DNA from: Rhodovulum sulfidophilum DSM 1374
GTDB taxonomy: Bacteria; Pseudomonadota; Alphaproteobacteria; Rhodobacterales; Rhodobacteraceae
DNA length: 64,000 nt
Direction of reading: 5' to 3'
NCBI RefSeq assembly: GCF_001633165.1
Contig: NZ_CP015419.1
Location: forward strand, 1-64,000
The position numbers and the translations under genes are program-made. How positions within the stretch are numbered: position 1 is the first letter of the stretch; every line of letters starts with the position of its first letter. Positions 23,975 through 58,633 of the stretch are shown here, piece after piece. The notes under the pieces were generated by a model. That model was given only the letters and a program-made list of their open reading frames with translations, searched no databases and was not told where the DNA came from.

Positions 23975-24618
23975 GCGGCCTCCGCGGGCAGGGCGGCCAG
24001 CGCGTCGCCGGTGGCGATCACGACGCCGCAGCATCCGGCGACCCAGCGCAGCGCCATGTCATGGCGCGCGGCGTCGAAATCGGCCTGTGCATCGGCCAGG
24101 GCAAAGGGCTGGATGTCGCGCTGAAACGCCTCGGCGGCGGTGGCGAGGCAGCCGATATGGGCATAGACACCCGCAATCATCAACTGGTCCCGGCCGCGCG
24201 CCCGCATCAGGCTGTCGAGGTTAGAGCGCTGAAAGGCGCTGTAGCGGTGCTTGACCAGGACGATGTCGCCCTCCGCAGGGGCAAGCTCGGGCAGGATGTC
24301 CTGATGATCGGGGCGGCGCGACATGCCCGGCCCCCAGAGATCGGCCTGCAGGCCCCGGTCGGCGCGAAGCTGATCGCCCTCCTGCGCGGTGTAGAAGACC
24401 GGCATCCCCGCGGCCCGCGCGGCCCGCGCGAGTGCGGCGATATTGGCGATGACGCCGGGCAGCGGAGCCGCGTCGTGCGGGTAGGGGGCACAGAAATAGC
24501 GCTGCATGTCATGGATCAGAAGCGCGGCGCGGTCGGGGTCGGGCCGCCAGGGCGCGCGGGAGCGGGGCAGGGCGTCGGGCGCGGGCAGCGGGTAGGAGGC
24601 AATCTCGGGAAGGGCCAT
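23965..24618 (-). CDS. entB: Isochorismatase without carrier domain (EntB N-terminal type)
   Basis: This 217-residue isochorismate lyase hydrolyses isochorismate to 2,3-dihydro-2,3-DHB and pyruvate. Conserved features are ALLIHDMQRYF (catalytic aspartate), LVKHRYSAFQRSNLD (lysine) and GVYAHIGCLATAAEAF, all diagnostic of EntB/DhbB/VibB-type enzymes. EntB and VibB are about 285-295 residues because of a C-terminal aryl carrier; this protein stops before it. The carrier is encoded alone at 22319. It begins 3 bp after the entC stop. Confidence 0.93.
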   Translation of the reverse strand: MALPEIASYPLPAPDALPRSRAPWRPDPDRAALLIHDMQRYFCAPYPHDAAPLPGVIANIAALARAARAAGMPVFYTAQEGDQLRADRGLQADLWGPGMSRRPDHQDILPELAPAEGDIVLVKHRYSAFQRSNLDSLMRARGRDQLMIAGVYAHIGCLATAAEAFQRDIQPFALADAQADFDAARHDMALRWVAGCCGVVIATGDALAALPAEAACA

Positions 24619-24621
24619 GGA

Positions 24622-25869
24622 TCATCCGTTCGGCTGGTTATGGAGGGAAGGATCGGACAGCGCCGCGTCGGGGGGCAGCCCCAGCGCGCTGAGGAAGGCG
24701 CCGAACTTGGCGCCGGTCTCGGAGGCTTCGGCCCGGGGGTCCGAGCCCAGCACGATCCCCGCGCCCGCGAACAGCCGTGCGCGCGCGCCGCAGAGCTCGG
24801 CGCAGCGGATCGCCACGTACCAGTCTCCGTCGCCCCGCCGGTCGCACCAGCCCACCGCACCGGCATAGAAATCGCGCGCCACCGGTTCCAGGTCGCGGAT
24901 CAGCCGGGCGGCACGGTCGCAGGGCAGGCCGCAGACGGCAGGCGTCGGATGCAGCGCGGCGGCCAGCAGGATGGCGGGCGTCTCGGGGTCCTTCAGCCGG
25001 CCCTCGATCCGGGTCCCGATATGCCACATCGAACGGGTGGTGGTGAGCGCCGTGCCCTCGGGCGTGCCCAGCCGTTTGCAGACCGGGGCAAGCATGTCGA
25101 GGATGTATTCGACCACCAGCCCGTGTTCGCGGCGGTCCTTTTCCGAGCGGGCCAGGGCGTTGGCGTTGCGCGCGTCTTCCTCGGGGTCGTCGAGCCGGCG
25201 CGCAGAGCCCGCCAGCGGATGCGAGACGATGCTGTCCCCGCGCTTGCGCAGCAGCAGCTCGGGCGTGGCCCCGACAAGCTGGCGGGGGGCGCTGCCATCG
25301 GCGTCCTGCGGCAGGGCCACCTGGAAGACGGTCACGGCGGGATCCTCGGCAAGCCGCGCCATCAGCCCGGGCAGCGCGAAGGCCATCCGGTCCTCGACCA
25401 GCAGGCTGCGGGCGAGCACGACCTTGGTCAGGGCATCGGGCAGGCCGCGTTCGGTGCGCATGATCTCCAGAGCGCGGGCGACGCTGTCCATGTAGCCGTT
25501 TGCCGGAGGTTGGGGACAGGGCCGTGCCGGCCTTTGCTCCGGAACCGGCCGGGCCGGGGCCCCGGCAGTGGCGCCCGGCCAGGACCCGTCGCCGCCCGCG
25601 ACCTGCCACAGGCAGTCGGGCCGGGCCTTGTCGAAGGGCAGCGCTCCGCCGATCAGCGCCCCGTCATCGTCGGCATCACGGGCGGCCCCGAAGAAGGGGG
25701 CGACCCGGTCCGCCAGGGTATCCGCTCCGGCCCGGTCCAGCGGCCGGACCGGGCCGGTCGCGCAGACCTGACCCCGGACCTGGTCACGGGCATTGCGAAA
25801 GCTGAAGGGCTGATCGGGCGGCAGCGAGGGCGCCTCGGTCAGGGTGGCGTCAGGGAAGGGCAGGGTCAC
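24622..25869 (-). CDS. entC: Isochorismate synthase (EntC/DhbC/VibC)
   Basis: This 415-residue chorismate-binding enzyme converts chorismate to isochorismate, the entry step to DHB. Visible family regions include TKVVLARSLLVEDR, LVGATPELLLRKRGD, HPLAGSARR, the metal-binding EHGLVVEYILDML and HPTPAVCGLPCDRA near the C-terminus. First gene of entCBA; the candidate iron element at 26106 lies about 240 bp upstream, shared with the divergent receptor gene. Confidence 0.93.
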   Translation of the reverse strand: MTLPFPDATLTEAPSLPPDQPFSFRNARDQVRGQVCATGPVRPLDRAGADTLADRVAPFFGAARDADDDGALIGGALPFDKARPDCLWQVAGGDGSWPGATAGAPARPVPEQRPARPCPQPPANGYMDSVARALEIMRTERGLPDALTKVVLARSLLVEDRMAFALPGLMARLAEDPAVTVFQVALPQDADGSAPRQLVGATPELLLRKRGDSIVSHPLAGSARRLDDPEEDARNANALARSEKDRREHGLVVEYILDMLAPVCKRLGTPEGTALTTTRSMWHIGTRIEGRLKDPETPAILLAAALHPTPAVCGLPCDRAARLIRDLEPVARDFYAGAVGWCDRRGDGDWYVAIRCAELCGARARLFAGAGIVLGSDPRAEASETGAKFGAFLSALGLPPDAALSDPSLHNQPNG

Positions 25870-26105
25870 GCATCAACCTCCGCGGTCTGCTTGCAATAGG
25901 GTTTTCGCACCGGGATCGGAGCTCCCGGATCCGGGGACAGTCCGCCCGCAAAGGAAACGGATGGACCGGGAAAAAGGAGAAGGAGGTCGCGTGATGCGCA
26001 CCGCGAAATCTCCGGCCAAACGGAGGGAGGCCGCTGCGCATCGACCCGGACGGGCCTGGCTGCCGGCGAGAAGAATGTCAGAGCGGCGGGAGGGGTCAAC
26101 AGGAA

Positions 26106-26125
26106 AGATTAGTTTTTCAGTCAGG
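26106..26125 (-). promoter_or_regulatory. Candidate iron-response element 2 (entC / receptor divergent promoter)
   Basis: Read on the minus strand this is CCTGACTGAAAAACTAATCT, matching element 1 at 15 of 20 positions. It sits in the 444-bp gap between entC and the receptor gene. The rest of the gap holds no gene; AT-rich DNA around 26162-26190 (TTTTTATATACTATATTGCG) probably carries the receptor promoter. Confidence 0.55.
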
Positions 26126-26313
26126 TATAAGACCGCAACCTGCGACAGAGTGGCTCAAACCTGAGCGTTTTTATATACTATATTGCGTTCAGGGGACCAT
26201 GCGCTAGAAATTGCTCACGTGAACTCACGATTCAGCGCCCCCGCGCGGGCAGACCACCACCACCATCTCGTCGCCAGCCATATCGCAAGCACGAAAACCC
26301 CAGGGTATTTGAC

Positions 26314-28398
26314 ATGGTACAGCGACGAGTCGCACGCCTGTTCGGCGGCGCCAGCATTGTTGCGCTTTGCGCAGTTTCCCCCACCGCAACCAAGGCGCAG
26401 GATCTGTCCGACGACGCCTATTCCCTTGGCACCCTCTTCATCATCGGCGACACCCTGATCCGCAGCTTCCAGAAGACGGCCGCGTCGGTGACGGCGGTGG
26501 AAGAGGCCGATATCGAGGCGGCGCAAGGCAAGGACAGCGTCAAGGACATTGTCGCCGACATGGCCAACGTGACCTATGCCGCCTCGGGCGGGCAGGGCGG
26601 CGCGCCCACGATCCGGGGCCAGGACGGCGAGGGGCCGAACTCGGGCGCGCCCGCCTTCTTCGGCGGCTCGGTGCCCCGGATCGCGGTCAACCTCGACGGG
26701 CATTACCTCAGCTACAACGAGCTGGTCTATTCCTCGACCTCGATCTGGGACGTGGACCATATCGAGCTGTTCCGCGGCCCGCAGACCATCAGCCAGGGCG
26801 CCAACAGCATCGCCGGCGCGCTGGTGGTGAAGACCAAGGACCCGACCTTCGAGCGCGAGGGGGCGGTGCGGCTGGAATACGGCTCGCGCGGCAAGCGCCG
26901 GGCCTCGCTGATGGCGTCGGGCGCGGTGGCACCGGACCTGGCCGCGCGCATCGCGCTGGATTACTCCGCGCGCGACAATTACATCGATTATGTCAATCCG
27001 GCCTTCTCGCTGGGCGGGACCGATCAGGACCACCTCTCGCAGACCGCGCGGTTCAAGCTCTTGTGGACGCCCGCGGCGATGCCGGGCTTCGAGGCGATGC
27101 TGACCTTCTCGCATACCGACAGCAACCGCCCGACCTGGGAAGCGGCGACCGTGCCGTTTTCAGACTATGACAGCACCGTCACCCAGAACCCCAGCTGGAA
27201 GCAGTTCACCAACACCACGATTCTCGATCTGAAACAGGAATTCGACAATGGCGCGACCCTGACCAACCAGTCGCAATTCTCGTCGCTTTATACCCGGCGC
27301 ACCACCTCGCCCGTGACGGCGGGCTCTGCGGTGATCGACCAGGACAGCTATTCCAACGAGACCCGGCTGACCTTCGGCAATGAGGCCACCGCGCTGAGCG
27401 GGGTCGCCGGGCTCTACCTCTCCCATACCGACAGCGACGAGACGCTGAACCTGCGCGGCGCGACCGCCTTTGACGACACCAAGGACAGCCTCGGCATCTT
27501 CGCCGGCCTCGACTACGATTTCGCCGATCGCTGGACCATCAGCGGGTCGGTCCGCTACCAGCGCGACCGGGTGCAGCGCGAGGGCTCGAGTTCGTTCGCG
27601 ACCAACGATCTGGACTATGACGAGACCTTCGACGACTGGCTGCCCAAGCTGTCGCTGTCCTATGACGTGAACGACACGACCACCATCGGCGCGATGGTGT
27701 CCAAGGGCTACAACCCGGGCGGCGTGACGCTGGGGCTGACCTCGGGCGAATGGGTCACCTTCGACCCCGAGACCTCGACCGATTACGAGCTCTTCGCCCG
27801 CACCCGGGTGCTGGACGACCGTCTGGGGCTGAGTGCCAACCTGTTCTACACCGATTTCAAGAACATGCAGCGCTACGTCACCTCGGAGGCCGTGGCGGGC
27901 TATTTCGAGGCGGTGACGGTGAATGCCGAGGAGGCCAATGCCTACGGGCTGGAGCTGGGCTTCGATTACGAGGCAAGCCAGACGCTGCGCCTTTACGGCA
28001 GCCTCGGCCTGCTTTCGACCGAAATCGAGAAATTCTCGAGCGCGGGGGCCGATTACAGCGGCAACGAGTTCGGCCGCGCCCCCGGCCAGACCATCAGCCT
28101 CGGCGCCGACTGGAAGATCCGTCCCGACCTGACGCTGTCGGGCAATGTGCGCTACAGTGGGTCCTATTTCTCGGATGACGACAACCTGTCGGCAAGCTTC
28201 GTCGATTCCTACACGGTGGCGAACACCCGCATCGCCTATGATCTGCAGGACAACCTGCAGCTCTACGGCTATGTCAACAACCTCTTCGACGAGGACGCGG
28301 TCACCTATCTGCGCGCCAGCCGCGCCGTTGTCGGCGGCTACGAGGCGACGCTGGTCGAACCGCGCGAGATCGGGATCGGGGTGAAGATGACGTTCTGA
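26314..28398 (+). CDS. TonB-dependent outer-membrane siderophore receptor
   Basis: This 694-residue TonB-dependent receptor has a signal peptide at residues 1-29 (ending near TKAQ). The plug domain (about 40-200) shows KDIVADMANVTYAA, TIRGQDGEGP and HIELFRGPQTISQGANSIAGALVV. A 22-strand barrel follows, ending in the terminal phenylalanine of VKMTF needed for outer-membrane insertion. There is no N-terminal signalling extension, so a FecIR-type cell-surface signalling circuit is unlikely. Its position divergent from entCBA suggests it imports the locus's own ferric catecholate. A strong terminator follows. Confidence 0.9.
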   Translation: MVQRRVARLFGGASIVALCAVSPTATKAQDLSDDAYSLGTLFIIGDTLIRSFQKTAASVTAVEEADIEAAQGKDSVKDIVADMANVTYAASGGQGGAPTIRGQDGEGPNSGAPAFFGGSVPRIAVNLDGHYLSYNELVYSSTSIWDVDHIELFRGPQTISQGANSIAGALVVKTKDPTFEREGAVRLEYGSRGKRRASLMASGAVAPDLAARIALDYSARDNYIDYVNPAFSLGGTDQDHLSQTARFKLLWTPAAMPGFEAMLTFSHTDSNRPTWEAATVPFSDYDSTVTQNPSWKQFTNTTILDLKQEFDNGATLTNQSQFSSLYTRRTTSPVTAGSAVIDQDSYSNETRLTFGNEATALSGVAGLYLSHTDSDETLNLRGATAFDDTKDSLGIFAGLDYDFADRWTISGSVRYQRDRVQREGSSSFATNDLDYDETFDDWLPKLSLSYDVNDTTTIGAMVSKGYNPGGVTLGLTSGEWVTFDPETSTDYELFARTRVLDDRLGLSANLFYTDFKNMQRYVTSEAVAGYFEAVTVNAEEANAYGLELGFDYEASQTLRLYGSLGLLSTEIEKFSSAGADYSGNEFGRAPGQTISLGADWKIRPDLTLSGNVRYSGSYFSDDDNLSASFVDSYTVANTRIAYDLQDNLQLYGYVNNLFDEDAVTYLRASRAVVGGYEATLVEPREIGIGVKMTF

Positions 28399-28419
28399 CC
28401 GGCCCGGTCAGGTCGCCGG

Positions 28420-28443
28420 AAGGGCCCGCATCAGCGGGCCCTT
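28420..28443 (+). terminator. Transcription terminator after receptor gene
   Basis: AAGGGCCCGC at 28420-28429 pairs perfectly with GCGGGCCCTT at 28434-28443 around an ATCA loop, 22 bp after the receptor stop. A few T residues are within the 3' arm and shortly after it, consistent with a rho-independent terminator. Confidence 0.7.
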
Positions 28444-29012
28444 GCCGTTTCCGGGGCGCGCATCCGGACCGCGAGGCCCACCGAACTCCGGGCCCGCCAC
28501 ATCCGGAAGGGCTTTCCGGCCTCTCTGTGGCGCCGCCGCTCCGACAGACCGAGATCGTCCCGCCTGTCCGCGGGCAGCGCGCCTGGGGCCCGTCGCCTGG
28601 GCGGCGCGGTATTCTTCCCGGATCAGCACCCGCACGGCATTCTCGTCTTCCGGCGCCTTAACAGGCAGTGCCACGGCTGTGGCATGACGTGCCATCGACG
28701 CGAAAAATCATTCAAAAACAGATGGTTCAAACCCGGGCGCACAGACGGCAGCCATATGGAAAGGAGATGAATATTTTATAATGGCTTGACAGCAATGGGC
28801 AGCTTGCTGCGTCAGCTGTGCAAAATTCTGCGCGGGCTTGCCCGCCCCGACCTTCAGATCCAAGGCGCCCTTGGGCTCGCACGCGTTGTGGGGGCCGCGA
28901 TCGCCCCCCATCCCAGCCCTCTCCAGTGAGAGGAAAGCCGGATCGCCGTGCGACCAGGCGCGCGCATCTGGCTCGTTTCCGGCATCTCGATCAGCATTCT
29001 GCTCAAACCAAC
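28444..29012. other. Non-coding stretch, probably decayed
   Basis: No convincing gene is seen. A minus-strand frame at 28695-28408 begins MARHATAVALPVKAPEDENA but lacks a ribosome site and shifts to Arg/Gly-rich sequence, so I do not call it. AT-rich DNA at 28765-28785 (GAATATTTTATAATGG) could be a promoter. The right end borders the transposase remnant. Confidence 0.4.
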
Positions 29013-29306
29013 CGTCCGTCTACGGGCTCTCATGCCGTCATTCCACCCCGCAGAAACGCCAAGCCATGGAAAACGATCACAACCGGCGCCGTGACCCGGA
29101 CCGAAACTCCGCGCGCAGCGAAGTGCCTGGCCGGACACTCGGGGGAAGATGGTGCGGATATCACCGCCGGAACCCGCGTCGAGGCAAGGATGCGCGGTGT
29201 CAAACTGCTGGGCCAGCAGGTCATGCCGAAGGGCTTTAGCAGCCAGATCGCCGGACCGGACGGTTGCACCGCTCTCGGCATTCCCGTCACCGAAGCTGTA
29301 GGATAA
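29013..29306 (+). pseudogene. IS5-family transposase remnant (3' end only)
   Basis: The plus strand encodes the C-terminal end of an IS5-type transposase in pieces. HAVIPPRRNAKPWK is followed, after a frame change, by GRTLGGRWCGYHRR, and then, back in the first frame, RVEARMRGVKLLGQQVM and CTALGIPVTEAVG plus a stop. The order matches the ends of intact family members, in which a stretch of about 17 residues lies before the final CTALGIPVTEAVG-like segment; here it is shortened. At least two frameshifts and a small deletion make it inactive. No intact 5' part or clear terminal inverted repeat is seen. Confidence 0.75.
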
Positions 29307-29502
29307 GACTGTCCGGGAAAGGGCAATCCCGGCCAGCAGCCGGTTCAAGCAACCGAGCCGCAGCAAGCCATTTGATCTTCAGCGCAGGATGCTCGATCAG
29401 TGACGCAGCATTTTCCGCAGGATATCCGAGCCTCGGCCACATCTTCGCCCCATTCGGGCGCCGTTACGGGCACATCCAGTCCAAAATCGCCGCAGGGCAG
29501 AC

Positions 29503-30423
29503 ATGAACCTGATCGAGCCACACCGCTTCACGCCCTTTGAGGCAGGCAGTCCGACGTCGGTCATTTTGCCGGGGCTGCACCGCAACACCCATGTTGACGT
29601 CATGCGGATCAACACGGGGCTCGTGCTGGCGCATAGTCATTTCTCGGCCGCGACCCGGCATGAGGGCGATATCCGGCGGCCCGAGGACCAGTTGATTCTC
29701 GCCTTCAACCTCTCGGGCCGGATGCTGCTGATCGATCCGCAGGGCGCGGCGCATGAGATCAGCGGCGGCGAGGGCTGGATCATCCGCTCGGGGGGCAGGC
29801 GGTTGCAGCGTATCGTCGAGAAAGGCGATGGCTGCTCGAACCTTGTCATCGCTCTTTCCGTATCGCGGCTTGCCCCCGCGCTGGCGGAGGGGCTGGAGCC
29901 CCTGTTGCCGCAAGCCGCGCCCTTCCGTCGCCTGTGCTTGCCGGTCCCCGGCAAATCCATGCTGGAAACGCTGCTGGACGGGCGCACCGATCCGGCGGCG
30001 CTTTTGCGCAAGGAAGGCCAGTGCCTCGCGCTGATCGGTCACGCGCTGGAAGAGATCGCCGCCGCACCGGACCATGGTCCTGCGACCGGCGATCCCGGCC
30101 TGCTGATTGCGCGCGTGACCGCTTTCCTCTCGGACAACCTTGCCAACCCGATCACCATATCCGGGATCGCGCAGGAGATGAGGATGAGCCATGTCACGCT
30201 GAATCAGATCTATCGCGCGGCGACCGGAATGACGGTGTTCCAGCATCTGCGCAGCCTCCGGCTCGAGGCCGCCGAACGGCTGATCCGCCACACCGATCGC
30301 AGCTTTACCGAGATCGCCGGCGAGTGCGGCTTTTCCGATGCCAGCCACCTGTCGAACGCGTTTCGCAAGCGCCACGATATGACCGCAAGCGACTGGCGGC
30401 GGCAGGTCCGGAAGAAAACCTGA
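29503..30423 (+). CDS. AraC-family transcriptional regulator of the adjacent receptor operon
   Basis: This 306-residue regulator has a divergent N-terminal sensor region (1-200) and a C-terminal AraC DNA-binding domain (about 205-300). Two helix-turn-helix units are visible: ITISGIAQEMRMSHVTLNQIYRA and SFTEIAGECGFSDASHLSNAFRKRHDM. It reads in the same direction as the receptor gene 91 bp downstream. In YbtA/PchR/AlcR-type systems an AraC protein activates uptake genes when the ferric siderophore reaches the cytoplasm; the same logic is plausible here but not shown. Confidence 0.9.
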   Translation: MNLIEPHRFTPFEAGSPTSVILPGLHRNTHVDVMRINTGLVLAHSHFSAATRHEGDIRRPEDQLILAFNLSGRMLLIDPQGAAHEISGGEGWIIRSGGRRLQRIVEKGDGCSNLVIALSVSRLAPALAEGLEPLLPQAAPFRRLCLPVPGKSMLETLLDGRTDPAALLRKEGQCLALIGHALEEIAAAPDHGPATGDPGLLIARVTAFLSDNLANPITISGIAQEMRMSHVTLNQIYRAATGMTVFQHLRSLRLEAAERLIRHTDRSFTEIAGECGFSDASHLSNAFRKRHDMTASDWRRQVRKKT

Positions 30424-30439
30424 TCCGGCTTCAGCATAT

Positions 30440-30459
30440 TCAAGAGTATTTTCGTCAGT
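30440..30459 (-). promoter_or_regulatory. Candidate iron-response element 3 (second receptor operon)
   Basis: Read on the minus strand this is ACTGACGAAAATACTCTTGA, which shares CTGACnnAAATACTC with element 1. It lies in the 91-bp gap between the AraC gene and the receptor gene, ending 55 bp before the receptor start, and would make this operon iron-responsive as well as AraC-controlled. Confidence 0.5.
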
Positions 30460-30514
30460 TACAAGATTCCCGCCGCCGGTCGTGGCACCTGCCCCCTGAA
30501 AAGGAGGCCCGCCC

Positions 30515-32608
30515 ATGTCCCGACATTCTTCATCCCGCCCTGTCCCCGGCCGCATCGCGCTCTTTGCCCTGTCCACCGCATTGACGGGCAGCCTGATCCC
30601 GGGCCCGGCGCAGGCCGGGGAAGACATGACCTATCTCGGCGAGATCACCATCTTCGCCAATTACTGGGAAGAACTGGCCCGCAAATCCGCCGTGACGGCG
30701 ACGGTTCTGGGCGGGGGCGATCTGGCGCGGCCGGTCTCGCCCGATCTCGACGCCATGGCGGGGCGGTCGGCCAATACCGTCTTCCAACGCGCCAATTCGC
30801 AGGAACGGCTGGTCGTGCGCGGCATGTCGGCCTTCGACAATGCCCTGTCCGATCCGGTCGGCTATATGGTGAACGGTGTGGCGCTGCCGATGGGCACGAT
30901 CCAGCTGCCGCATTTTTTCGGGGCCGACAGCGTGACGCTGCTGAAGGGGCCGCAGGGCACCACCTTCGGACGCAATTCCGAGGCAGGGCTGCTGGCCTTC
31001 GACACGATCCGGCCCGGCAGCCGCGAGGGCGGCGAGATCAATCTGGGCGTTTCGGGATCGGATGCCGGCGCGTCCCCCCTTGGCGGCAGCGGCTCGGTGC
31101 TGTGGTCGGGGCGCGCGAGGAATGGCCCCGCACTGGCCTTCGGGCTGGAATATGCCCGCGATCCGGGCGTGATCTCGAATCCGGTCACCGGCGCGGATGA
31201 TGGCGGCAAGGATCGCCGGGCCACCGGTTTTGCGGCGGCCGAGTGGGATCTTCAGGATGGCGGCTATCTGCGCCTGACCACGCTGGCCGAGAACCAGAAG
31301 TTCAACAAGGAGCAGTTCCGCTCGATTTCGGGCCCCTTCGCCACCGGCCGTTATGAGAGCGTCTATTCCGACCCGTCATGGGAACGCCGCCGGACATCCG
31401 TCACGGCACTTGAATATGGCACCGGCTTTGACGGGTTCGACCTGACGGCGATCACCGGCTTCACCACCTTCGACCGCGATTTCGTGCTGGATTTCGACGG
31501 TTCCCCCCTGACCCTCGGGGTGACCGAGCTGGATGTCCGTGACCGCACCATCTCGCAGGAGATCCGGCTGACCTCGACCGGTGCGGGACCGCTGAAATGG
31601 GTGCTCGGCGTCAATGCCTTCAAGCAAAGCACCGATGCCGATTTCAACCTTGGCGCCATGTCGACCGACCGCCATACCGAGATCGACCAGAACGGTGTCG
31701 CTCTCTACGGTTTCACCGAATATGCGATCAGCGAGCGGTTCCGCCTGGGCGGCGGGCTCAGGCTGGATCATGTCTCGTCGGAGGCCTGGCAGAGCTTCAC
31801 CTCGCCCATGGCGCGCCTGCGTTACAAGGGCGACGAAAGCTCGACCACCCTGCTGCCGAAACTGACGCTGGCCTATGACCTGTCGGAGGCGACCACGATC
31901 CATGCGAGCTATGCCCGTGGCTATATGCCCGCGGGCTACAATTACGGCTTCGCCAACAGTGCCGACAGCCTGACCTATGGCGCCGAATACAGCTGGAATG
32001 CCGAGATCGGGGTGAAGCATGCATTCACCAATGGCGCGGCGCTGACCCTTGCCGCCTTCCACACCACGGTGAAGGACAAGCAGATCACCGAGACCATCCC
32101 CGGTGCCGCGCAATATATCTCGAATGCGGGCGAGGCGAAAAGCTACGGCATCGAGGCGGAATTGACCGCGCCGCTGGGATCCGGCTGGGAACTCGCCGCC
32201 AATGCCGGATGGCAGCGCGCAAGGGCAAGCTCGTTCCGGACCTCCTCGATGGATCTGGGCACGGGATCTTTGACACCGGTCGACTGGTCCGGCAATGCCT
32301 TGCCGATGGCGCCCGAGACGACCTGGGGGCTTGCGCTCTCGCATCAGGGCGAGGTCTGGCGCGCAAGGGGCAGCCTGCATGGTTCGGGCAGCTACTGGTT
32401 CGATCCGGGCAATACGGTAAAGCAAAAGGGGTTCATGACCGTCGATGCCGAGATTTCCCGAAGCCTCGGGAAGGGCGAGCTGACGCTCTGGGTGACGAAC
32501 CTGCTGGATGAGGAATATTACAGCACCGCCGCCTCGACGATGCGCGGCGTGGTGGTCGAGGATGGCAGCCCGCGAACCATCGGCATGAACTGGAAGATCG
32601 CATGGTGA
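30515..32608 (+). CDS. TonB-dependent outer-membrane receptor of the methyltransferase operon
   Basis: This 697-residue TonB-dependent receptor has a signal peptide ending near residue 34 (GPAQA). A TonB-box-like GEITIFA follows, then the plug with SQERLVVRGMSAFDNAL and VTLLKGPQGTTFGRNSEAG. The barrel ends with a terminal Trp (NWKIAW). A perfect AAGGAGG precedes the ATG. The barrel shows the pattern of Rhizobium/Caulobacter-type receptors more than FepA or FhuA. The ligand is unknown. Its stop overlaps the start of the methyltransferase gene by 7 bp. Confidence 0.9.
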   Translation: MSRHSSSRPVPGRIALFALSTALTGSLIPGPAQAGEDMTYLGEITIFANYWEELARKSAVTATVLGGGDLARPVSPDLDAMAGRSANTVFQRANSQERLVVRGMSAFDNALSDPVGYMVNGVALPMGTIQLPHFFGADSVTLLKGPQGTTFGRNSEAGLLAFDTIRPGSREGGEINLGVSGSDAGASPLGGSGSVLWSGRARNGPALAFGLEYARDPGVISNPVTGADDGGKDRRATGFAAAEWDLQDGGYLRLTTLAENQKFNKEQFRSISGPFATGRYESVYSDPSWERRRTSVTALEYGTGFDGFDLTAITGFTTFDRDFVLDFDGSPLTLGVTELDVRDRTISQEIRLTSTGAGPLKWVLGVNAFKQSTDADFNLGAMSTDRHTEIDQNGVALYGFTEYAISERFRLGGGLRLDHVSSEAWQSFTSPMARLRYKGDESSTTLLPKLTLAYDLSEATTIHASYARGYMPAGYNYGFANSADSLTYGAEYSWNAEIGVKHAFTNGAALTLAAFHTTVKDKQITETIPGAAQYISNAGEAKSYGIEAELTAPLGSGWELAANAGWQRARASSFRTSSMDLGTGSLTPVDWSGNALPMAPETTWGLALSHQGEVWRARGSLHGSGSYWFDPGNTVKQKGFMTVDAEISRSLGKGELTLWVTNLLDEEYYSTAASTMRGVVVEDGSPRTIGMNWKIAW

Positions 32609-33606
32609 GCCCGGATCGTTCCTCGGGCGCCGCGCGTCTCTTGCAGACACTGGAAGGCCCGATCCGCTACGCGCTTCTCGACTGGGCGCTGGAAAGCGGA
32701 GTGTTCGGGTTTTGCGAAAGCCACATCGCCCCGGATCTGCTTGGCCGGCGCATGGAGCTGCCGGTCGGCCCCCTGACCCTTGCGCTGCGCGCCCTTGTCG
32801 CGGCCGGGTTCATGGAGGCGGGCGAGGCCGGTTTCCGCACCGCGCCCGACATCCTGCCCTTCGTGAAGACGGGCAGCCCGCGCAACATGGTCGAGACCCT
32901 GCGCATGATGGCCGGGACCCGGCATGCAGGGCTCGGGCAGTTCGGCGCGCTGGTGGCGGGCAAGGCCGCCCCCTCCGGGTCGCGATTGTTCGACGAGGCG
33001 CATTGGGATGCGCATCACCGCTCGCTCGCGGGGTTTCACCGCGCGGTCGGCACCGATGCCACCGCGCCCTGCCTGACCGGCCTGCCGGAATGGCCCCATG
33101 CCCGAAACCTGCTGGATATCGGGCCCGGCTCTTCCGCCCTGGCCGCCCGGCTGCTGGCCATGCGCCCGGATCTGCGCATCACGCTTTTCGACCTGCCGCC
33201 TGTGGCCGAACGGATCGGGGCCGAGGCCGAAAGCCTGCCGCTTGCCATCATGCCCGGAAACTACAACCGGACCCTGCCCGACGGGCCCTTCGACATCATC
33301 TGGTGTTCGATGTCGCTCTATTTCCATGACGGCGGCCTGCCCGCGCTGATCGCCCGGCTGGCCGAGCGGCTGGCTCCGGGCGGCGTCCTGGTCAGCTTCC
33401 ACGAGGCGCTGAGCGATCACCGCTCGGCGCCCCCCGAACATGTGCTGGGCCGGCTGCTGCCCGCGCTGCGGCAGGGCGATGTCTCCTTCGCCGAGGGCGA
33501 GATCGCCGATGCCATGGCCGCGGCCGGTCTTGTCCGCCCGACCTCGCAGCACCTTTCCACAGCCTTTGGCCGCTTCCGTCTGGATGCCGCCCGCAAGGAG
33601 GTCTGA
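32602..33606 (+). CDS. SAM-dependent O-methyltransferase (family 2 type) in an uptake operon
   Basis: This 334-residue methyltransferase has an N-terminal dimerisation/winged-helix region (PIRYALLDWALESGVFGFC) and a Rossmann SAM-binding domain beginning LLDIGPGSSALAARLLAMRPDLRITLFDLPPVAE. The GxG loop and the acidic-Leu-Pro end of strand 2 are typical of plant/bacterial O-methyltransferase family 2, whose substrates are usually phenolic or enolic hydroxyls. It starts within the receptor stop and ends 1 bp before the binding-protein gene, so it is an integral part of a transport operon. Substrate unknown; modification of the imported compound is a reasonable inference. Confidence 0.8.
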   Translation: MVSPDRSSGAARLLQTLEGPIRYALLDWALESGVFGFCESHIAPDLLGRRMELPVGPLTLALRALVAAGFMEAGEAGFRTAPDILPFVKTGSPRNMVETLRMMAGTRHAGLGQFGALVAGKAAPSGSRLFDEAHWDAHHRSLAGFHRAVGTDATAPCLTGLPEWPHARNLLDIGPGSSALAARLLAMRPDLRITLFDLPPVAERIGAEAESLPLAIMPGNYNRTLPDGPFDIIWCSMSLYFHDGGLPALIARLAERLAPGGVLVSFHEALSDHRSAPPEHVLGRLLPALRQGDVSFAEGEIADAMAAAGLVRPTSQHLSTAFGRFRLDAARKEV

Positions 33607-33607
33607 C

Positions 33608-34513
33608 ATGCGCCTGCTCCCCCTTTTCCTCGCGGTGCTGCCGCTGCCCGCTCTCGCCGAAGAGATCCTGCTCTCGGGGCCGCCGATCTGGGAAAGCGCG
33701 CCCCTGATCGCCCTGGCCGAGGATCAGCCGCTCGAGGGGATCACCTTCAGCTTCCGGCCCTGGGCCAGTCCCGAGCAATTGCGCAAACGGGTCATCGCGA
33801 ACATACCGCTGATGGCGGTCGCCCCCTCTCCCACGGCGGCGATCTTCGATGCGAACGGCATGGCGTTGCGGGTGGTTTCGGCAACGATCACCGAGGGCAG
33901 CCTGTCAATCGTCGGGCGGGGCACAGAGATAACCGAACTGGCGGATCTGCAGGGGGCAAGCCTCGCGCTGCCATTCAAGGGCTATCTGCCCGACCTGATG
34001 ATGCGCCGCATCGCGGAGCCCGGGGCCGAGACATGGCAGCCGCATTATACCGGCAGCCTCGTTGCCGGAATGCAGCTATTGCTGGCCGAACGGGGCGTCG
34101 ATGCCACCTTGCTGGCCGAGCCGATGGCCACGCTCGCACTGGCACAGGATCGGGCCCTGACGCGCCAGGCGGATCTCTGCGCGCTCTGGCGCGGCGCGAC
34201 CGCCCTTGCCGATTGCCCGCCTGCGGGAGTGATCATCGTCAATCCCGCTTTCGCAGAGCGGCCCGAGATCCGCGCCGCCTATCACGCGGCCTTTGCGAAG
34301 CTGGCCGCCGATCCGGCCAGCGCCGCCGGTCTGCTGGCCGCGCATTTCCCCGAGATGGCGCAGGCAAGGGCCGGCTTTGCCCGCATTTCGGCACTCGACC
34401 TTCCCATGCCGGAACAGGCGGATGTGCTTGCCGATTTCTATGCCGCGATCCTAAAGATCGAGCCCGCAGCCATCGGAGGCAGGCTGCCCGAAGGGGATTT
34501 CTACGGGAAATGA
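33608..34513 (+). CDS. Periplasmic binding protein, NMT1/SsuA-like
   Basis: This 301-residue secreted binding protein has a signal peptide at 1-17 (LPALAEE). The first lobe starts ILLSGPPIWESAPLIALAED and continues with a permuted NMT1/SsuA-type layout (ELADLQGASLALPFKGYLPDLMMRRI; GVDATLLAEPMATLALA). This family usually serves nitrate, sulfonate, taurine or pyrimidine-precursor transporters, not iron chelates. The ATG at 33608 follows the methyltransferase stop directly. Confidence 0.82.
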   Translation: MRLLPLFLAVLPLPALAEEILLSGPPIWESAPLIALAEDQPLEGITFSFRPWASPEQLRKRVIANIPLMAVAPSPTAAIFDANGMALRVVSATITEGSLSIVGRGTEITELADLQGASLALPFKGYLPDLMMRRIAEPGAETWQPHYTGSLVAGMQLLLAERGVDATLLAEPMATLALAQDRALTRQADLCALWRGATALADCPPAGVIIVNPAFAERPEIRAAYHAAFAKLAADPASAAGLLAAHFPEMAQARAGFARISALDLPMPEQADVLADFYAAILKIEPAAIGGRLPEGDFYGK

Positions 34514-35244
34514 CGCGAAAGCTGGCCTTTCTGACCGGGGTGGCGGCGATCGTCCTGTTCTGGTCGCTTGCCGCGCAGGCAAACCTGCCCGCGATTCTGC
34601 CCGGTCCTCTGGCGGTCGCAAGGGCGCTTGGCCTGTTGCTCGGCGATCCGGGGTTCTGGTCCGGCACGCTGGGGCCGAGCCTCGGTCGCGCCAGCGGCGG
34701 GCTGGCGCTGGCCTTCGCCATCGGCGCGCCGCTGGGCCTTGCGAGCTGGCGCTGGCCAATCGTCGCGGCGCTGCTCGCCCCCTTGCGGCTGATCCTGATG
34801 GGGCTGCCCGCGCCTGTGCTCGCCATCCTCTGCATCCTGTGGTTCGATGGCAGCACCACGACGACCATCCTGACGGTGGCGGCGCTGCTGGTTCCCGTCT
34901 TCCAGATCGCCATCGCCGAAGGCATGGGCGCAATCGACCCGCAGCTTGACGAGATGGCGCGGCTCTTCCGCGTGCCGCCGATCCGCCGCCTGCGCCGCAT
35001 CATCCTGCCCGCGCTCTGGACAGCGCTTGGCCCGGCCTTGCGCATCGCCGTCGCCAACGCGATCCGCGTGACGCTGCTGACCGAGCTTCTGTCGGGGGCC
35101 GAGGGCCTCGGCGCGGCGGTGCAACGCGCACAAAGCTGGCTTCAGACCGACCGGCTGTTTGCGCTGGTGCTCCTGATCCTCGCGCTGATCGGACTGGCGG
35201 AGGTCGCGCTTGCGGCCCTGACACGCGAGAGGAAACGGCCATGA
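34510..35244 (+). CDS. ABC transporter permease, SsuC/TauC type
   Basis: This 244-residue permease of the nitrate/sulfonate class has an N-terminal membrane anchor and five further helices. The ATPase-contact loop lies in the region IDPQLDEMARLFRVPPIRRLRRIILPALWTAL, which follows the EAA pattern. It starts in the ATGA overlap with the binding-protein stop and ends in an ATGA overlap with the ATPase gene. Confidence 0.88.
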   Translation: MTRKLAFLTGVAAIVLFWSLAAQANLPAILPGPLAVARALGLLLGDPGFWSGTLGPSLGRASGGLALAFAIGAPLGLASWRWPIVAALLAPLRLILMGLPAPVLAILCILWFDGSTTTTILTVAALLVPVFQIAIAEGMGAIDPQLDEMARLFRVPPIRRLRRIILPALWTALGPALRIAVANAIRVTLLTELLSGAEGLGAAVQRAQSWLQTDRLFALVLLILALIGLAEVALAALTRERKRP

Positions 35245-35822
35245 CCCTGTTCGCTGCCGACACTATCGGCCTGCATTATCCCGGCCGCCCCGGCCCCGTC
35301 TTCCGCGCGCTGTCGCTGAGCATCCTGAAGGGCGAGAGCCTCGGTCTGAGCGGACCAAGCGGTACGGGCAAGACCAGCCTGATGCGGGTGATCGCCGGGC
35401 TGGAGCGTCCGACATCGGGCCGCATTTCCATCCGGCCCCGCCGGATCGGCATGGCCTTCGCCGAGCCGCGCCTGCTGCCACGTCTTTCGGCCATGGAGAA
35501 CCTGTCCTTCATCGCCCCGAAGGCCCGCGCCGAGGGACGCGCCATGCTGACCGCGCTGAAGATGGCAGCCTTGCAGGATGCTTCCGCAGACAGCCTCTCG
35601 AAGGGTCAGGCGCAGCGCGTGGCACTGATCCGTGCCCTGCTGATCCGCCCCGAGATCCTGCTGCTCGACGAGGCGCTTGGCGGGCTCGACATGGCGACAT
35701 GGCAGAGCGCCCGCGACCTGATCCTGGCAAAGCGCGACCGGGACGGCTTTGCCCTGGTCGAGATCAGCCATGACCCGGCCCGGCGGATCATGCCCGAGGC
35801 TCGGGCGATTTCGTTCCCCTGA
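35241..35822 (+). CDS. ABC transporter ATPase, SsuB/TauB type (short form)
   Basis: This 193-residue ATPase has Walker A GPSGTGKTSLMRVI, a signature in an unusual form (LSKGQAQRVALIRALL, Lys replacing the second Gly of LSGGQ), Walker B ILLLDEALGGLD and switch EISHD. At 193 residues it is shorter than SsuB/TauB (about 250) and appears to lack a C-terminal extension rather than any catalytic motif. It completes a three-gene ABC uptake system for the receptor at 30515. Confidence 0.88.
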   Translation: MTLFAADTIGLHYPGRPGPVFRALSLSILKGESLGLSGPSGTGKTSLMRVIAGLERPTSGRISIRPRRIGMAFAEPRLLPRLSAMENLSFIAPKARAEGRAMLTALKMAALQDASADSLSKGQAQRVALIRALLIRPEILLLDEALGGLDMATWQSARDLILAKRDRDGFALVEISHDPARRIMPEARAISFP

Positions 35823-35836
35823 AGGAAGGATACCCC

Positions 35837-36061
35837 ATGCAGACACGACCACGACCTTCGCGTCCCCGCCTCGCCCTTCTGGTTGGCATCGGCGTCTGGC
35901 CGATCATCACCACGCTGCTCTACCTGATCCGCCCCGTCAGTCAGGGCTGGCCGGTCTTGCTGACCACGCTCGCCCTCACGCCAGCCATGGTCATCATCAT
36001 GGTTTGGGGACTGTTACCGGCAATCCATCGCTATTTCGGAAAGTTCCTCATGCGGGGCTAA
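35837..36061 (+). CDS. Small two-helix membrane protein
   Basis: This 74-residue protein has two predicted membrane helices (about residues 12-30 and 39-60) and a basic N-terminus. A good AAGGAAGG site lies before the ATG, 14 bp after the ATPase stop, so it is the last gene of the receptor-methyltransferase-ABC operon. I do not recognise the family. Its 3' end overlaps the convergent membrane-protein gene by 4 bp. Confidence 0.7.
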   Translation: MQTRPRPSRPRLALLVGIGVWPIITTLLYLIRPVSQGWPVLLTTLALTPAMVIIMVWGLLPAIHRYFGKFLMRG

Positions 36062-36876
36062 ATGCCGACGATCCGCGGAACGGTGGACCGAAGCCCGGCC
36101 ATCTCGTCCAGCCGGTCATCCACCGCGATCCAGCAGACGAGACAGGCCAACAGTCCCAGGAGACCAGCCCCGAAGCCCAAGCGCAGTATCGTGTCCTGCG
36201 CCCGCAAAAGCGGCAGCCCCGCGCGCATTTTCCGCGCGATGGAGCGATCCCCGAGGCGCAACAGGAACACGCCCAGGTCCGGCAGTGTCGGGTCGATACG
36301 TGCCCTGCCGTGCCGGGAGCTCATCGGCAGGCGCAGGACCTCGCCCGAGGCATCGGGCAGGCGGGTAACTTCGATATGCTGGTCGTGGCCGGGCAGGAGG
36401 CCATCCGCGACCAAGTCTCGTTCCCAGTGGAACGGTATTTCGACAAGGTCCCGCGACCGGCCCAAGGTGAAGATATTGGTGCTGTCGCGGGTGGGATGGA
36501 CAATGGCGCACAGCGAGTCGCCGAACACCTCGACCTGCAGGTCATCTGGCACGCGCAGGGCGGGTCGCATCCGCAACACCCCGACCAAGGCCGCTCCCCA
36601 TCCGGAAAACACGAATACTCTAACCAGGACGCAGAGGGTCAGAAACACCAGCGCCGAGACGACATATCCGTCCAAGGCCCTGGCCTCGATCCCGATCCCG
36701 ATCCAGGCCAGAACCCCAATCCCCAAGCCGGGCCAGACGAAGGTCGTCGCGAAGATCAGACGCCGGAGCCGGCGCAGGTAGCTGCGCTCTTCGGCGGTGG
36801 CGAAGCGGCGTCTGGTCCTTGTGGGGGCCGGAGCAGAGGATGAGGTGAAGGATGCGGCGCGCGAGGGTTCATTCAT
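36058..36876 (-). CDS. Membrane protein of unknown function
   Basis: This 272-residue protein has a basic N-terminal segment, two membrane helices (about 40-85), a soluble central part (about 90-230) and a third helix near the C-terminus (GFGAGLLGLLACLVCWIAV). The soluble part is beta-rich with no recognised motif. I chose the ATG at 36876; the frame is open to 37074 but that part is Pro/Arg-rich with shadow-like composition. An AT-rich block at 37086-37120 (ATTTGATACATAATTTCCATTATCGG) could hold its promoter. Confidence 0.55.
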   Translation of the reverse strand: MNEPSRAASFTSSSAPAPTRTRRRFATAEERSYLRRLRRLIFATTFVWPGLGIGVLAWIGIGIEARALDGYVVSALVFLTLCVLVRVFVFSGWGAALVGVLRMRPALRVPDDLQVEVFGDSLCAIVHPTRDSTNIFTLGRSRDLVEIPFHWERDLVADGLLPGHDQHIEVTRLPDASGEVLRLPMSSRHGRARIDPTLPDLGVFLLRLGDRSIARKMRAGLPLLRAQDTILRLGFGAGLLGLLACLVCWIAVDDRLDEMAGLRSTVPRIVGI

Positions 36877-37329
36877 CGGATCGGCGGGGTCGTCCTGTTC
36901 GAACTCGGAAACTGGTCTTGCTGCGCCAAGATGGAGCTCGGGCATTCCCAAGTCCAGTTTCCCGGACGGCTTGCGCCGGTCTGGTTGAGCAGTCGGGACC
37001 GCGACGGAACCGGGCACAGCGCGCCGGACGCGGGGCCCCGAACGCGGTGCGAAAATAATCCCTTGCCCGCGCATCCTTCGTCACAATTTGATACATAATT
37101 TCCATTATCGGTTTTTTAACGATGGCCCCAGACATCGTCCTGAAGCTGTGCCAAGTCGTAGGGCTGCAAGGCTGCGGGCTTTTCGGGCGCAGCCCCGTCT
37201 CCCTGGAACTTACGGCAATCAGCGGAGCGCCGGAAGCAATCCGGGCTCCGTCTTACGCGGTCTGGGCCGCTGGTCACCCGGCATCGGCCGGAACCGCGCG
37301 GCGCGGTCGCTCTGCTGCGTCGCGGCCCG

Positions 37330-37558
37330 GAATGATCGGCAATTCGGCATCGCTGCCCGGATCCGTCCGGCGACCGTCTTCCAGCACCAGCAGCCAGTCG
37401 ATCAGGATTCGGCGCAGATCGACCCCGCCGATGCGAATCGTGACCTCCTACGGACCGGACGGACGCATCGGACGCCGGGTCAAGGTGATCTTGCCGAACC
37501 CCGAGGCCCCACCGGCACGGCCATGCTGTGCGCGGGCTGCCTGGCCGAGACCCTGCGC
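37330..37558 (-). pseudogene. ABC-transporter ATPase remnant with internal deletion
   Basis: Reading the minus strand from 37558, one frame encodes GGASGFGKITLTRRPMRPSG, a decayed Walker A region, then a TAG stop, then EVTIRIGGVDLRRI. This jumps directly to DWLLVLEDGRRTDPGSDAEL, which matches the end of such ATPases (ILVLEDGRIVExGSHAEL). The Q-loop, signature and Walker B are missing. The pattern is that of an exporter-type ABC half like those at 5106-8773, with about 130 residues deleted in frame and a premature stop. The 817-bp gap around it (36877-37693) holds nothing else I recognise. Confidence 0.65.
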
Positions 37559-37693
37559 CCGGCGACAGGAGATCTCGGCGGTGTTGGGCTTTTGCCTGCG
37601 CCTCGGGGGAAGACATTGCTCCGGTCTCGCCCACGACCTCGTCGCCGAACCGACCATCGCGGATGACCGGCATTGCCGCCCGGATCGACCCGG

Positions 37694-38368
37694 TCACAGC
37701 AGCGACAGAAGCTTCCGCGCGGCCTCTTCGGACGAGGCCGGGTTCTGGCCGGTCACCAGCTTGCCATCGATCACCACGAAAGAGGCCCAGTCCTCGCCCT
37801 TCCGGTACTGACCACCGTTCGATTTCAGCATGTCCTCGACCAGGAACGGCACGACGTCGGTCAGGCCGACACCTTCTTCCTCGCTGTTGGTGAAACCGGT
37901 CACGGTCCTGCCCGATACCAGCGGCTTGCCGTCCGGACCCTTGGGGTGCCTGAAGACGCCCGGCGCATGACAGACGGCCCCGACCGGACGGTCGCGCGCG
38001 GCGAAGGCCTCGATCAGCGCGATGGCGTCCTTGTCCTCGGCCAGATCCCACAGGGGGCCGTGACCGCCGGGGAAGAAGATCGCGTCAAATCCCTCGGCCG
38101 AGACGGAAGACAGGACCTCGGAACTGGCCAGATGCTTCTGCGCCGCGTCATCCGCCTTGAACCGCCGGGTGGCCTCGGTCCCGGCATCGTCGCTGTCGCT
38201 GGCCGGGTCCAGCGGCGGCTGGCCGCCCTTGGGCGAGGCCAGGGTGATCTCGGCCCCGGCATCCTTGAAGACGTAATAAGGCGCGGCGAATTCCTCGAGC
38301 CAGAAGCCGGTCCTGTTGCCGGTATCGCCCAGTTTGTCATGCGATGTCAGGACCATGAGAATTTTCAT
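37694..38368 (-). CDS. DJ-1/PfpI superfamily protein (Hsp31-like glyoxalase III/chaperone)
   Basis: This 224-residue DJ-1/PfpI protein has the nucleophilic cysteine in PVGAVCHAPGVFRHP near residue 120, the acidic partner in GFWLEEFAAPYYVFKDAG near residue 18, and IFFPGGHGPLWDLAED. This layout matches the Hsp31/YDR533-type subgroup, which degrades methylglyoxal or acts in protein repair. The ATG at 38368 was chosen as the start of MKILMVLTS. It lies 28 bp after the reductase gene and is likely co-transcribed; together they suggest defence against reactive carbonyls. Confidence 0.88.
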   Translation of the reverse strand: MKILMVLTSHDKLGDTGNRTGFWLEEFAAPYYVFKDAGAEITLASPKGGQPPLDPASDSDDAGTEATRRFKADDAAQKHLASSEVLSSVSAEGFDAIFFPGGHGPLWDLAEDKDAIALIEAFAARDRPVGAVCHAPGVFRHPKGPDGKPLVSGRTVTGFTNSEEEGVGLTDVVPFLVEDMLKSNGGQYRKGEDWASFVVIDGKLVTGQNPASSEEAARKLLSLL

Positions 38369-38396
38369 CGGGGTCTTCCTCCGGGATTCGTGTCGT

Positions 38397-39428
38397 TTAC
38401 TGGCCAAGCCTGACGACGCGTTTGCCGAAAGCCTCGCCATTGAGCAGCCCAACGAAAGCGGCGGGCGCCTGTTCCAGCCCCTCGATCATTTCCTCGCGAT
38501 ACCTGATCTTGCCCTGCGCCACCCAATCGCCCATCTGCTTGGCGAATTCCGGGTAGAGATGGCCGAAATCGTCGAAGACGATGAAACCGTGCATGGTCAT
38601 CCGCTTGCGCAGGATCGTGCCCATCAGCAGGGACATCCGGTCGGGCCCGTCGGGCAGCGACGTGGCGTTATATTGCGAGATCAGCCCGCAAACCGGGATC
38701 CGGGCCGAGGCGTTCAGCAGGGGCAGCACGGCATCGAAGACCGCGCCGCCGACATTTTCGAAATAGATGTCGATGCCATCCGGAACAGCGGCTTCCAGCG
38801 CCTTGGGGAAGCCCTCGGCCTTGTAGTCGATGCAGGCGTCAAAGCCGAGGGTCTCGGTGACATGGCGGCATTTCTCACCTCCGCCGGCAATGCCGACAAC
38901 GCGCAGGCCCAGGATCTTGCCGATCTGGCCGACCGTCGCCCCGACCGGGCCGCTGGCCCCGGCCACGACAAGGGTCTCGCCCGCTTTCGGCTGCCCGATC
39001 CGGGTCAGCCCGGCCCAGGCCGTCAGCCCCGGCATGCCGAGGACGCCAAGCGCCCAGGACGGATGTTCGGGCGACTTGCCCATGTTGATCACGCCGGTGC
39101 CGTCCGAAAGCGCGTAATCCTGCCAGCCACCGAAGGCCACGACGCGGTCCCCCGTCTCGAAGCCGTCCACATCCGATGTCACCACCTCTGCCACCGTGCC
39201 GCCGACCATGACCTCGCCGATCTCGACCGGGGCGGCATAGGAGGGCGCATCGCTCATCCGGCCGCGCATGTAGGGATCGAGCGAGAGGTATTCGTTGCGC
39301 AACAGCATCTGGCCGGGGCCGGGGCTGGGCACCTCGGCGGATTCCAGGCGCAGGGTGTTTTCGTCGGGGGCGCCCTTCGGACGCCGGGCCAGGACATATC
39401 TGCGGTTCACGGTATCGGTTTGTGCCAT
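38397..39428 (-). CDS. NADP-dependent enal/enone reductase (CurA/PTGR-like MDR family)
   Basis: This 343-residue zinc-independent medium-chain reductase has DPYMRGRMSDAPSYA near the N-terminus, the nucleotide-binding loop VVAGASGPVGATVGQIGKILG, and VGGAVFDAVLPLLNASARIPVCGLISQYN, all typical of the CurA/YncB/leukotriene-B4-dehydrogenase group that reduces alpha,beta-unsaturated carbonyls. No zinc ligands are present. It is paired with the DJ-1 gene downstream. Confidence 0.9.
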   Translation of the reverse strand: MAQTDTVNRRYVLARRPKGAPDENTLRLESAEVPSPGPGQMLLRNEYLSLDPYMRGRMSDAPSYAAPVEIGEVMVGGTVAEVVTSDVDGFETGDRVVAFGGWQDYALSDGTGVINMGKSPEHPSWALGVLGMPGLTAWAGLTRIGQPKAGETLVVAGASGPVGATVGQIGKILGLRVVGIAGGGEKCRHVTETLGFDACIDYKAEGFPKALEAAVPDGIDIYFENVGGAVFDAVLPLLNASARIPVCGLISQYNATSLPDGPDRMSLLMGTILRKRMTMHGFIVFDDFGHLYPEFAKQMGDWVAQGKIRYREEMIEGLEQAPAAFVGLLNGEAFGKRVVRLGQ

Positions 39429-39725
39429 GGGACATTCCAGTTTGATCGGTTCTTGTCCTGAAGATTTGTGCCGGCCCGTGGCATGACAAGGGCGGCCTGC
39501 CGCACATCCACTTGAACGGGCCCTTGAACAGGGCGGCGCGGGCCTCCCTCAGGCGTCAGAGCGGCGGCTCTCTTGGTGGCGGGGAGTGACCCCATACGCT
39601 CGGCCGGTGCCGGATGCGCCTGTTCTGGCCCAACATGATCGCGACGCGATCCCAGAGAGGCAGCAAAAGCGCCCCGGACATACGGGTCATTTCGGATGTG
39701 CCAAAGCGGCGCTCATCGGCGCGCA
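39429..39725. other. Non-coding stretch
   Basis: No gene, terminator or repeat is recognised with confidence. A minus-strand frame at about 39680-39556 (LPLWDRVAIMLGQNRRI...) has a faint likeness to transposase ends but is too short and too diverged to call. Confidence 0.35.
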
Positions 39726-41012: not shown

Positions 41013-41333
41013 GGAGGCCCCGGAAACCCTCGCCTTGCAAGTGAAAACACAGGTGTCTCCTGCAGTCACGCCAGCGTCGACAGGCCCGGCCACAGGCATG
41101 CGGCATCGCCATACCGCCCGTCACGTTAGTGGCGATGGCCTCGAATGCGGCGTTGGGGTGCCGTCCCCCCGTGACCGTGCCCCTGCCGGAGCCCCCAAGC
41201 AGCATCGCCGAGGAACAGGCGCGGCCGGATCGGCGGGGAACCGCAACCGCATTCAGAAGCGCAGGTTTCCCGGGACGACGGGGGGCGACGACCCCGCCCC
41301 CCCGGACCTGCGCGGAACGGTGTCGGACCCGCC
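41013..41333. other. Non-coding stretch between DUF6880 gene and hps operon end
   Basis: Nothing is recognised on either strand. If the DUF6880 protein lost its N-terminus, this region would hold the junction, but I cannot identify the missing residues in any frame. Confidence 0.35.
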
Positions 41334-58530: not shown

Positions 58531-58583
58531 CCGGCGCCCGAGCGCACCCGTTTCCCGCCCTTCCGGCACCCCGCAAGGCACCT

Positions 58584-58608: not shown

Positions 58609-58633
58609 GAAAGGCACTGAGAGGAGAGCTCCC

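Follow-up and report, generated by a model that had tools for sequence, protein, structure and literature searches.

A plasmid-borne operon of Rhodovulum sulfidophilum encoding a FyuA-like receptor, a methyltransferase and an ABC transporter, possibly for metallophore uptake

A cluster of seven genes was identified at positions 29503-36061 of a 64,000-nucleotide stretch of DNA from Rhodovulum sulfidophilum DSM 1374 (NZ_CP015419.1, positions 1 to 64,000; hereinafter referred to as the window). The genes, all on the + strand, encode an AraC-family regulator (AraC), a TonB-dependent outer-membrane receptor (TBDR), an S-adenosylmethionine (SAM)-dependent O-methyltransferase-like protein (OMT; METHYLTRANSFERASE), a periplasmic substrate-binding protein (SBP), an ABC permease, a short ABC ATPase, and a small membrane protein. 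We tentatively regard the cluster as a plasmid-borne, locally regulated operon for metallophore uptake in which the imported ligand would be methylated in the cytoplasm, a reading to which we give slightly less than an even chance. The FyuA-like TBDR would import a small, probably aromatic (phenolate- or catecholate-like) metallophore across the outer membrane, and the SsuA-class SBP and the ABC transporter, replaced by a major facilitator superfamily (MFS) transporter in other loci, would move it into the cytoplasm. There the OMT may cap a donor atom (oxygen, or else nitrogen or sulfur), by which the metal would be freed and the spent chelator barred from rebinding. AraC is proposed to sense the ligand and to activate the receptor operon from an operator at 30441-30465.

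Organization of the operon

All seven genes were recovered as reading frames where the original prediction had placed them. AraC (306 aa, 29503..30423; HTH_18, 79.7 bits) is separated by 91 nt from the TBDR (697 aa, 30515..32608; TonB_dep_Rec and Plug domains), which overlaps by 7 nt with the OMT (334 aa, 32602..33606; assigned from Pfam, homologs and a structure model). The SBP (301 aa, 33608..34513; assigned from a structure model) begins after a gap of 1 nt, and 4-nt overlaps join it to the permease (244 aa, 34510..35244; BPD_transp_1, 55.5 bits) and the permease to the ATPase (193 aa, 35241..35822; ABC_tran, 95.1 bits). The small membrane protein (74 aa, 35837..36061; identified as a reading frame) follows 14 nt downstream of the ATPase. 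The six genes from the receptor onward were confirmed to overlap or nearly touch, no gap exceeding 14 nt, and this anatomy strongly supports a single uptake unit. By eye, the N-termini of the TBDR and the SBP were signal-peptide-like, and the OMT had no visible signal peptide.

The window belongs to a 4.35-Mb genome. Its region 23602-42603 was identical at 19,002 of 19,002 bases to NZ_CP015422.1, a 113,522-bp plasmid of Rhodovulum sulfidophilum SNK001 whose annotation shows the same genes.

Conservation of the gene set

Among 8000 candidates scored, 39 OMT homologs were found at E 0.001 or better. A contig scan based on a 24-sequence alignment (the window and 23 of the 39 homologs) and two short patterns gave 34 stretches and 12 confirmed loci, and a search of a plasmids-only collection gave nine records. 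The 19 loci read comprised the 12 contig loci and seven of the nine plasmid records, the window's own included; H4 and H7 (Azospirillum) lie outside this set. All 19 were found through the OMT itself; L018 is the window, and L024 shares its OMT protein accession with L022.

An AraC homolog was present upstream in all 19 loci, and the receptor lay immediately before the OMT in 18 of them, the exception being L016. Thirteen loci were of the ABC type, 12 with SBP, permease and ATPase and one (L012) ending at a contig edge. The order AraC-TBDR-OMT-SBP-permease-ATPase was found in 12/12 complete ABC-type loci, the own plasmid record included, with the reservations that L016 has no adjoining TBDR and that the ATPase of L011 is chimeric. 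The receptor stop and the OMT start overlapped by no more than 7 nt or were separated by no more than 11 nt in all 15 loci measured (window included; script-picked starts). Pairwise identities of the OMT were strongly correlated with those of the receptor (r 0.98) and of the SBP (r 0.95), and all correlations among OMT, TBDR and SBP were in the range 0.95-0.98 (L009, L012 and L022 were left out, as were L011 and L017 for the ATPase, and the permease of L006 was not recovered). Correlated identities of this kind are what co-inheritance as a block would yield. The original prediction would have fallen if the OMT were a chance neighbor; since AraC lies upstream in 19/19 loci, the receptor directly precedes the OMT in 18/19, and the identities of OMT, TBDR and SBP co-vary, this objection fails. 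In contrast, the small membrane protein, which had been counted as a core part, was not borne out as such; of the loci searched, L006 and the own plasmid record were the only ones with a homolog, and we treat the protein as an optional member.

Six distant loci from Insolitispirillum, Azospirillum and Tistrella (L017, L020 to L024) encoded an MFS transporter between AraC and the receptor, and the ABC module was not found in any of the six. The ABC transporter that had been taken as part of the theme is present in 13 of the 19 loci but is not essential. AraC, receptor and OMT are retained when an MFS transporter takes the place of the ABC module, which suggests that the OMT is linked to the ligand and not to the pump. 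A broader claim, that the operon represents the first uptake pathway in which SAM-dependent methylation of an imported chelator frees the metal or inactivates the spent ligand, carried by a transferable receptor-OMT module with either an ABC or an MFS partner, is somewhat unlikely.

The operon is rare: at high score it was found in the own genome only among 390 Rhodobacterales genomes, and in four of 385 genomes in a class draw. Plasmid copies in the plasmids-only collection came from Rhodovulum, Rhodobacter capsulatus, Azospirillum and Tistrella; the copy of R. capsulatus SB1003 is located on pRCB133 (RCAP_RS17780 to RS17755). The loci of Paracoccus denitrificans DSM 413 (L010) and Roseovarius pacificus (L009), merged in our count of 12 distinct ABC-type loci, were 99% identical over 15.8 kb, and type IV secretion genes (VirB/TraG-type) adjoin the operon in L010, which together suggest transfer. 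The pair could reflect either a transferred plasmid or a mislabelled assembly. In L011, the ATPase (L011:12637-13704) begins like that of the operon and continues as a longer protein with LSGGQ, resembling a sugar-type ATPase; this looks like a recombination or an assembly join in a metagenome bin.

Regulator and candidate operator

In the annotation of NZ_CP015422.1, AraC begins 33 codons later, leaving out 29503-29601 of the window. We favor the 306-aa start at 29503 because six relatives show good conservation of the additional N-terminus and L014 and L015 a recognizable form of it (starts of the relatives script-picked). Between AraC and the receptor, the intergenic alignment revealed a CAAG repeat with 21-nt spacing (30441..30465, + strand). 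The motif was conserved in this alignment, which covered 11 ABC-type loci, and degenerate in L014, L015 and R. capsulatus. In the own genome, 30441-30465 was the sole match at three or fewer mismatches, and control matches numbered 0. The motif is probably the operator of AraC.

Receptor and methyltransferase

The closest solved structure to the receptor was FyuA (4epa; E 2.2e-53, profile positions 45-698 of 699), and the next-best solved receptor (E 1.7e-21) covered only positions 399-699. The near full-length similarity, well above that to other solved receptors, makes the TBDR FyuA-like, a membership that does not imply the ligand. With the receptor profile at a threshold of E 1e-70, only two of the 390 Rhodobacterales genomes matched, the own genome with 1234 bits and G234 with 254 bits, the latter holding a cousin of the receptor. 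The operon of the G234 receptor (L102:1923-12792) contained AraC, the receptor, two fused ABC ATPases, two FepD/FepG-like genes and one FepC-like gene, and no OMT was detected among the neighbors searched. It looks like a yersiniabactin-type uptake arrangement, and we take its gene order to be reminiscent of YbtA-FyuA-YbtP-YbtQ.

The OMT matched Methyltransf_2 (PF00891) at 23.6 bits (cut-off 22.3), and its structure model (pLDDT 89.1) showed an O-methyltransferase fold; the family-2 label given to it originally can be kept, by a narrow margin in score. In plant-type family-2 enzymes, the catalytic His lies within an HDW motif. The OMT of the window has a His in YFHDG, which is replaced in Azospirillum and others (placement by eye), and His267 and His280 were invariant in 18 alignment rows. 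The enzyme might instead serve detoxification, inactivating a toxic chelator or siderophore-like antibiotic let in by the receptor. We consider this very unlikely, as an importer dependent on an SBP would draw the toxin in and DtpM was no nearer to the OMT than several other methyltransferases.

Binding protein, permease and ATPase

At E 0.001, neither Pfam nor NCBIfam gave a match for the SBP. Its model (pLDDT 84.3) had an SsuA-class binding-protein fold, with 3hn0 (BDI_1369, no stated function) as the nearest structure, followed by 3un6, PqqT and SsuA. Cys191 and Cys203 were invariant in 10/10 rows. The assignment of the transporter to the nitrate/sulfonate/NMT1 class accordingly holds at the level of the SBP model but has no counterpart in a family match for the SBP sequence. 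For the permease, the best NCBIfam models were SaoP and SsuC, both far under the cut-off (SsuC, 47.4 vs 347 bits). Compared with SsuABC/PqqT-class importers, the module shares the SBP fold and the permease domain, and differs in that its scores fall short of the SsuC and PqqU cut-offs and that the nearest SBP structure is BDI_1369.

Under a further explanation, the operon would take up a cofactor or nutrient of aromatic or heterocyclic structure (PQQ-like, or a plant phenol) instead of a metallophore, and the OMT would perform the first catabolic or salvage step. The operon contains no catabolic genes, the receptor scored 33.2 bits with the PqqU model (cut-off 1200), and the sequence match between the SBP and PqqT was marginal (E 0.0019). 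Siderophore genes, moreover, adjoin several copies of the operon and form part of the G234 operon, in which the closest cousin of the receptor lies, and we judge the nutrient explanation unlikely.

The ATPase was, as predicted, short (193 aa) and carried LSKGQ instead of LSGGQ. LSKGQ was present in seven of 10 ATPases compared (window included), whose lengths were 189-216 aa, and six ATPases of cousins from operons without the OMT were 247-251 aa long with LSGGM.

Cousins of the ABC module were sought with an SBP profile in the 390 Rhodobacterales genomes (E 1e-20). Fourteen genomes matched, the own genome at 514 bits and the other 13 at 75-130 bits. No OMT was present in the stretches around the 13 cousins, one of which (L092) begins 1.1 kb before the SBP, with genes further upstream out of view. 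NnrS directly followed the ATPase in seven of the 13 (L085 to L091), and an NnrS-type receptor was in view in two. Of 52 plasmid records matching the SBP, eight were opened; none of these listed an OMT, six encoded NnrS (L055 to L058, L060, L062), three had a TonB receptor immediately before the SBP (L056, L057, L059), and some adjoined nap, pseudoazurin, Rrf2-type or Crp/Fnr genes. The NnrS and denitrification neighbors indicate that the ABC module derives from a larger, partly denitrification-linked family, within which AraC, the OMT, a short ATPase with LSKGQ and the FyuA-like receptor set the present subfamily apart. SBP-permease-ATPase-NnrS operons of Agrobacterium, Shinella and others share a homologous ABC module (SBP ~30% identical), but no OMT was seen in the 13 genome and eight plasmid cousins, and their ATPase is ~250 aa long with LSGGM. 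We know of no assigned substrate for the ABC module accompanied by NnrS.

Comparison with known systems

The metal of an imported chelator is known to be freed by hydrolysis, by reduction or by acylation. Receptor-bearing clusters for the thiocarboxylate chelators PDTC and thioquinolobactin contain methyltransferases. FyuA/YbtA/YbtPQ and FptA/PchR/FptX are gene sets for phenolate siderophore uptake; the present operon resembles them in its AraC regulator and FyuA-like receptor and differs in its inner-membrane transporter, and to our knowledge neither has a methyltransferase next to the receptor. The original prediction that no described system has this gene set agreed with the literature searched, in the portions available of which no such operon was found, and with NCBIfam, which gave no match above cut-off for the operon proteins. 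In Pseudomonas aeruginosa, FiuC of the FiuA-FiuB-FiuC system adds an acetyl group to cytoplasmic ferrichrome as iron is released (PMC7699141). This system is the nearest mechanistic precedent, namely covalent modification after import. Each of the two combines a receptor and an importer of the inner membrane with an enzyme for modification of the siderophore taken up (a role that is proposed for the OMT); the Fiu system uses acetylation and a proton-driven permease for a known ligand, whereas the present operon has a methyltransferase and an SsuABC-type ABC transporter.

If true, a receptor-coupled methyltransferase would add methylation to the known routes of metal release, a chemically simple disabling of a phenolate or thiol donor. 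In addition, an ABC family annotated as taurine/nitrate importers is now tied to TonB receptors, so that such labels may be wrong.

Flanking genes and the nature of the ligand

A catecholate siderophore cluster was identified just upstream of the operon (window 5112-28398), including 2,3-dihydroxybenzoate (DHB) genes, a nonribosomal peptide synthetase (NRPS), two separate condensation proteins, a TonB receptor, an importer of Fep type and a pair of fused ABC ATPases. Its layout resembles the vibriobactin or parabactin type. Iron-uptake genes were also found beside other copies. The R. capsulatus operon is followed by FecCD, a receptor and genes with condensation domains. L007 encodes an RhtX/FptX siderophore importer that scored over the curated cut-off, with an RhtA-like receptor and AraC, and L011 an RhtX/FptX-like protein under the cut-off, with a receptor. 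L012 and L016 contain Fep-type genes plus a binding protein, and L010 contains a receptor, an FAD monooxygenase and two fused ABC ATPases. For Paracoccus denitrificans, the carrier of L010, PMC9409073 states that it 'may excrete' the siderophore L-parabactin. Of the 12 distinct ABC-type loci, six had a second TBDR in the flank, namely the window, L007, L010, L011, L012 and L019, for which the chance probability was 6e-7 at own-genome receptor density and 2.7e-4 at three times that density. A metallophore is favored as ligand because siderophore genes adjoin several copies, the receptor is FyuA-like, and the cousin receptor of G234 lies in an OMT-less operon of siderophore type. Of the predicted import of a metallophore or aromatic ligand methylated in the cytoplasm, the metallophore part is the one that these neighbors, the receptor and the G234 operon favor; the chemical class of the ligand, its metal and the action of the OMT we only infer.

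The biosynthesis genes beside the operon also bear on another role of the OMT, which might tailor the bacterium's own siderophore or feed the AraC sensor without acting on the imported ligand. DHB siderophore genes do adjoin the operon in the window, but the OMT is also present where no biosynthesis genes are annotated next to it, e.g., in Azospirillum, and the chance of this role seems as small as that of detoxification.

Several observations weigh against metallophore uptake. At ten times the own-genome receptor density, six second receptors in 12 loci would have a chance probability of 0.07, and the plasmid is about that rich, carrying four of the 12 receptors of the genome. In L006, L008, L013, L014 and L015, a Pfam scan of 2, 1, 3, 3 and 2 flanking proteins, respectively, detected no iron-uptake genes, and the siderophore genes of the window used as query gave no match beside these five loci. 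The receptor missed the cut-off of the TonB-siderophore receptor model TIGR01783 (140.6 vs 223.5 bits). The unrelated TBDR at 26314-28398 of the window also had FyuA as its first solved match, although a much weaker one (E 5.7e-15). A simple iron-box pattern was found upstream of AraC in just three of 11 loci, the window not among them. The familiar ligands of SsuA-class proteins are small organic molecules and not ferric siderophores, and the MFS protein of the MFS-type loci weakly resembles efflux pumps.

The last of these points is a cobalamin riboswitch in R. capsulatus (pRCB133, L019:5519-5745; 71.6 bits, gathering cut-off 31.5), which lies on the same strand as AraC, with its end 39 nt upstream of the annotated start. 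It would fit a supply of cobalt or corrinoid, the imported ligand then being a chelate of cobalt or an aromatic precursor related to B12. However, scans of 26000-39000 of the window and of 13 other relative loci revealed no cobalamin riboswitch, nor did a rescan of L010, L014 and L015 at E 0.1. The TonB-B12 model was absent from the receptor's NCBIfam matches, and no cob genes were listed in the 46-kb R. capsulatus stretch, the gene table of which is incomplete. This explanation is improbable, more so than the nutrient one. Homology suggests that the true AraC start in R. capsulatus lies further downstream.

Other observations

The same plasmid encodes, at ~55307-59695 of the window, another TonB siderophore receptor together with a siderophore-interacting protein. 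In R. capsulatus, an SBP, an iron-type permease, an ATPase, a pseudoazurin and another class I methyltransferase occur in a row (L067:7842-11807); the latter shows hardly any similarity to the methyltransferase that adjoins FepC in L016. Thiamine pyrophosphate (TPP) riboswitches flank two relatives (L011:6119-6234, - strand; L013:12400-12504, + strand), and that of L013 precedes a phosphomethylpyrimidine kinase gene, so that it is probably unrelated to the operon.

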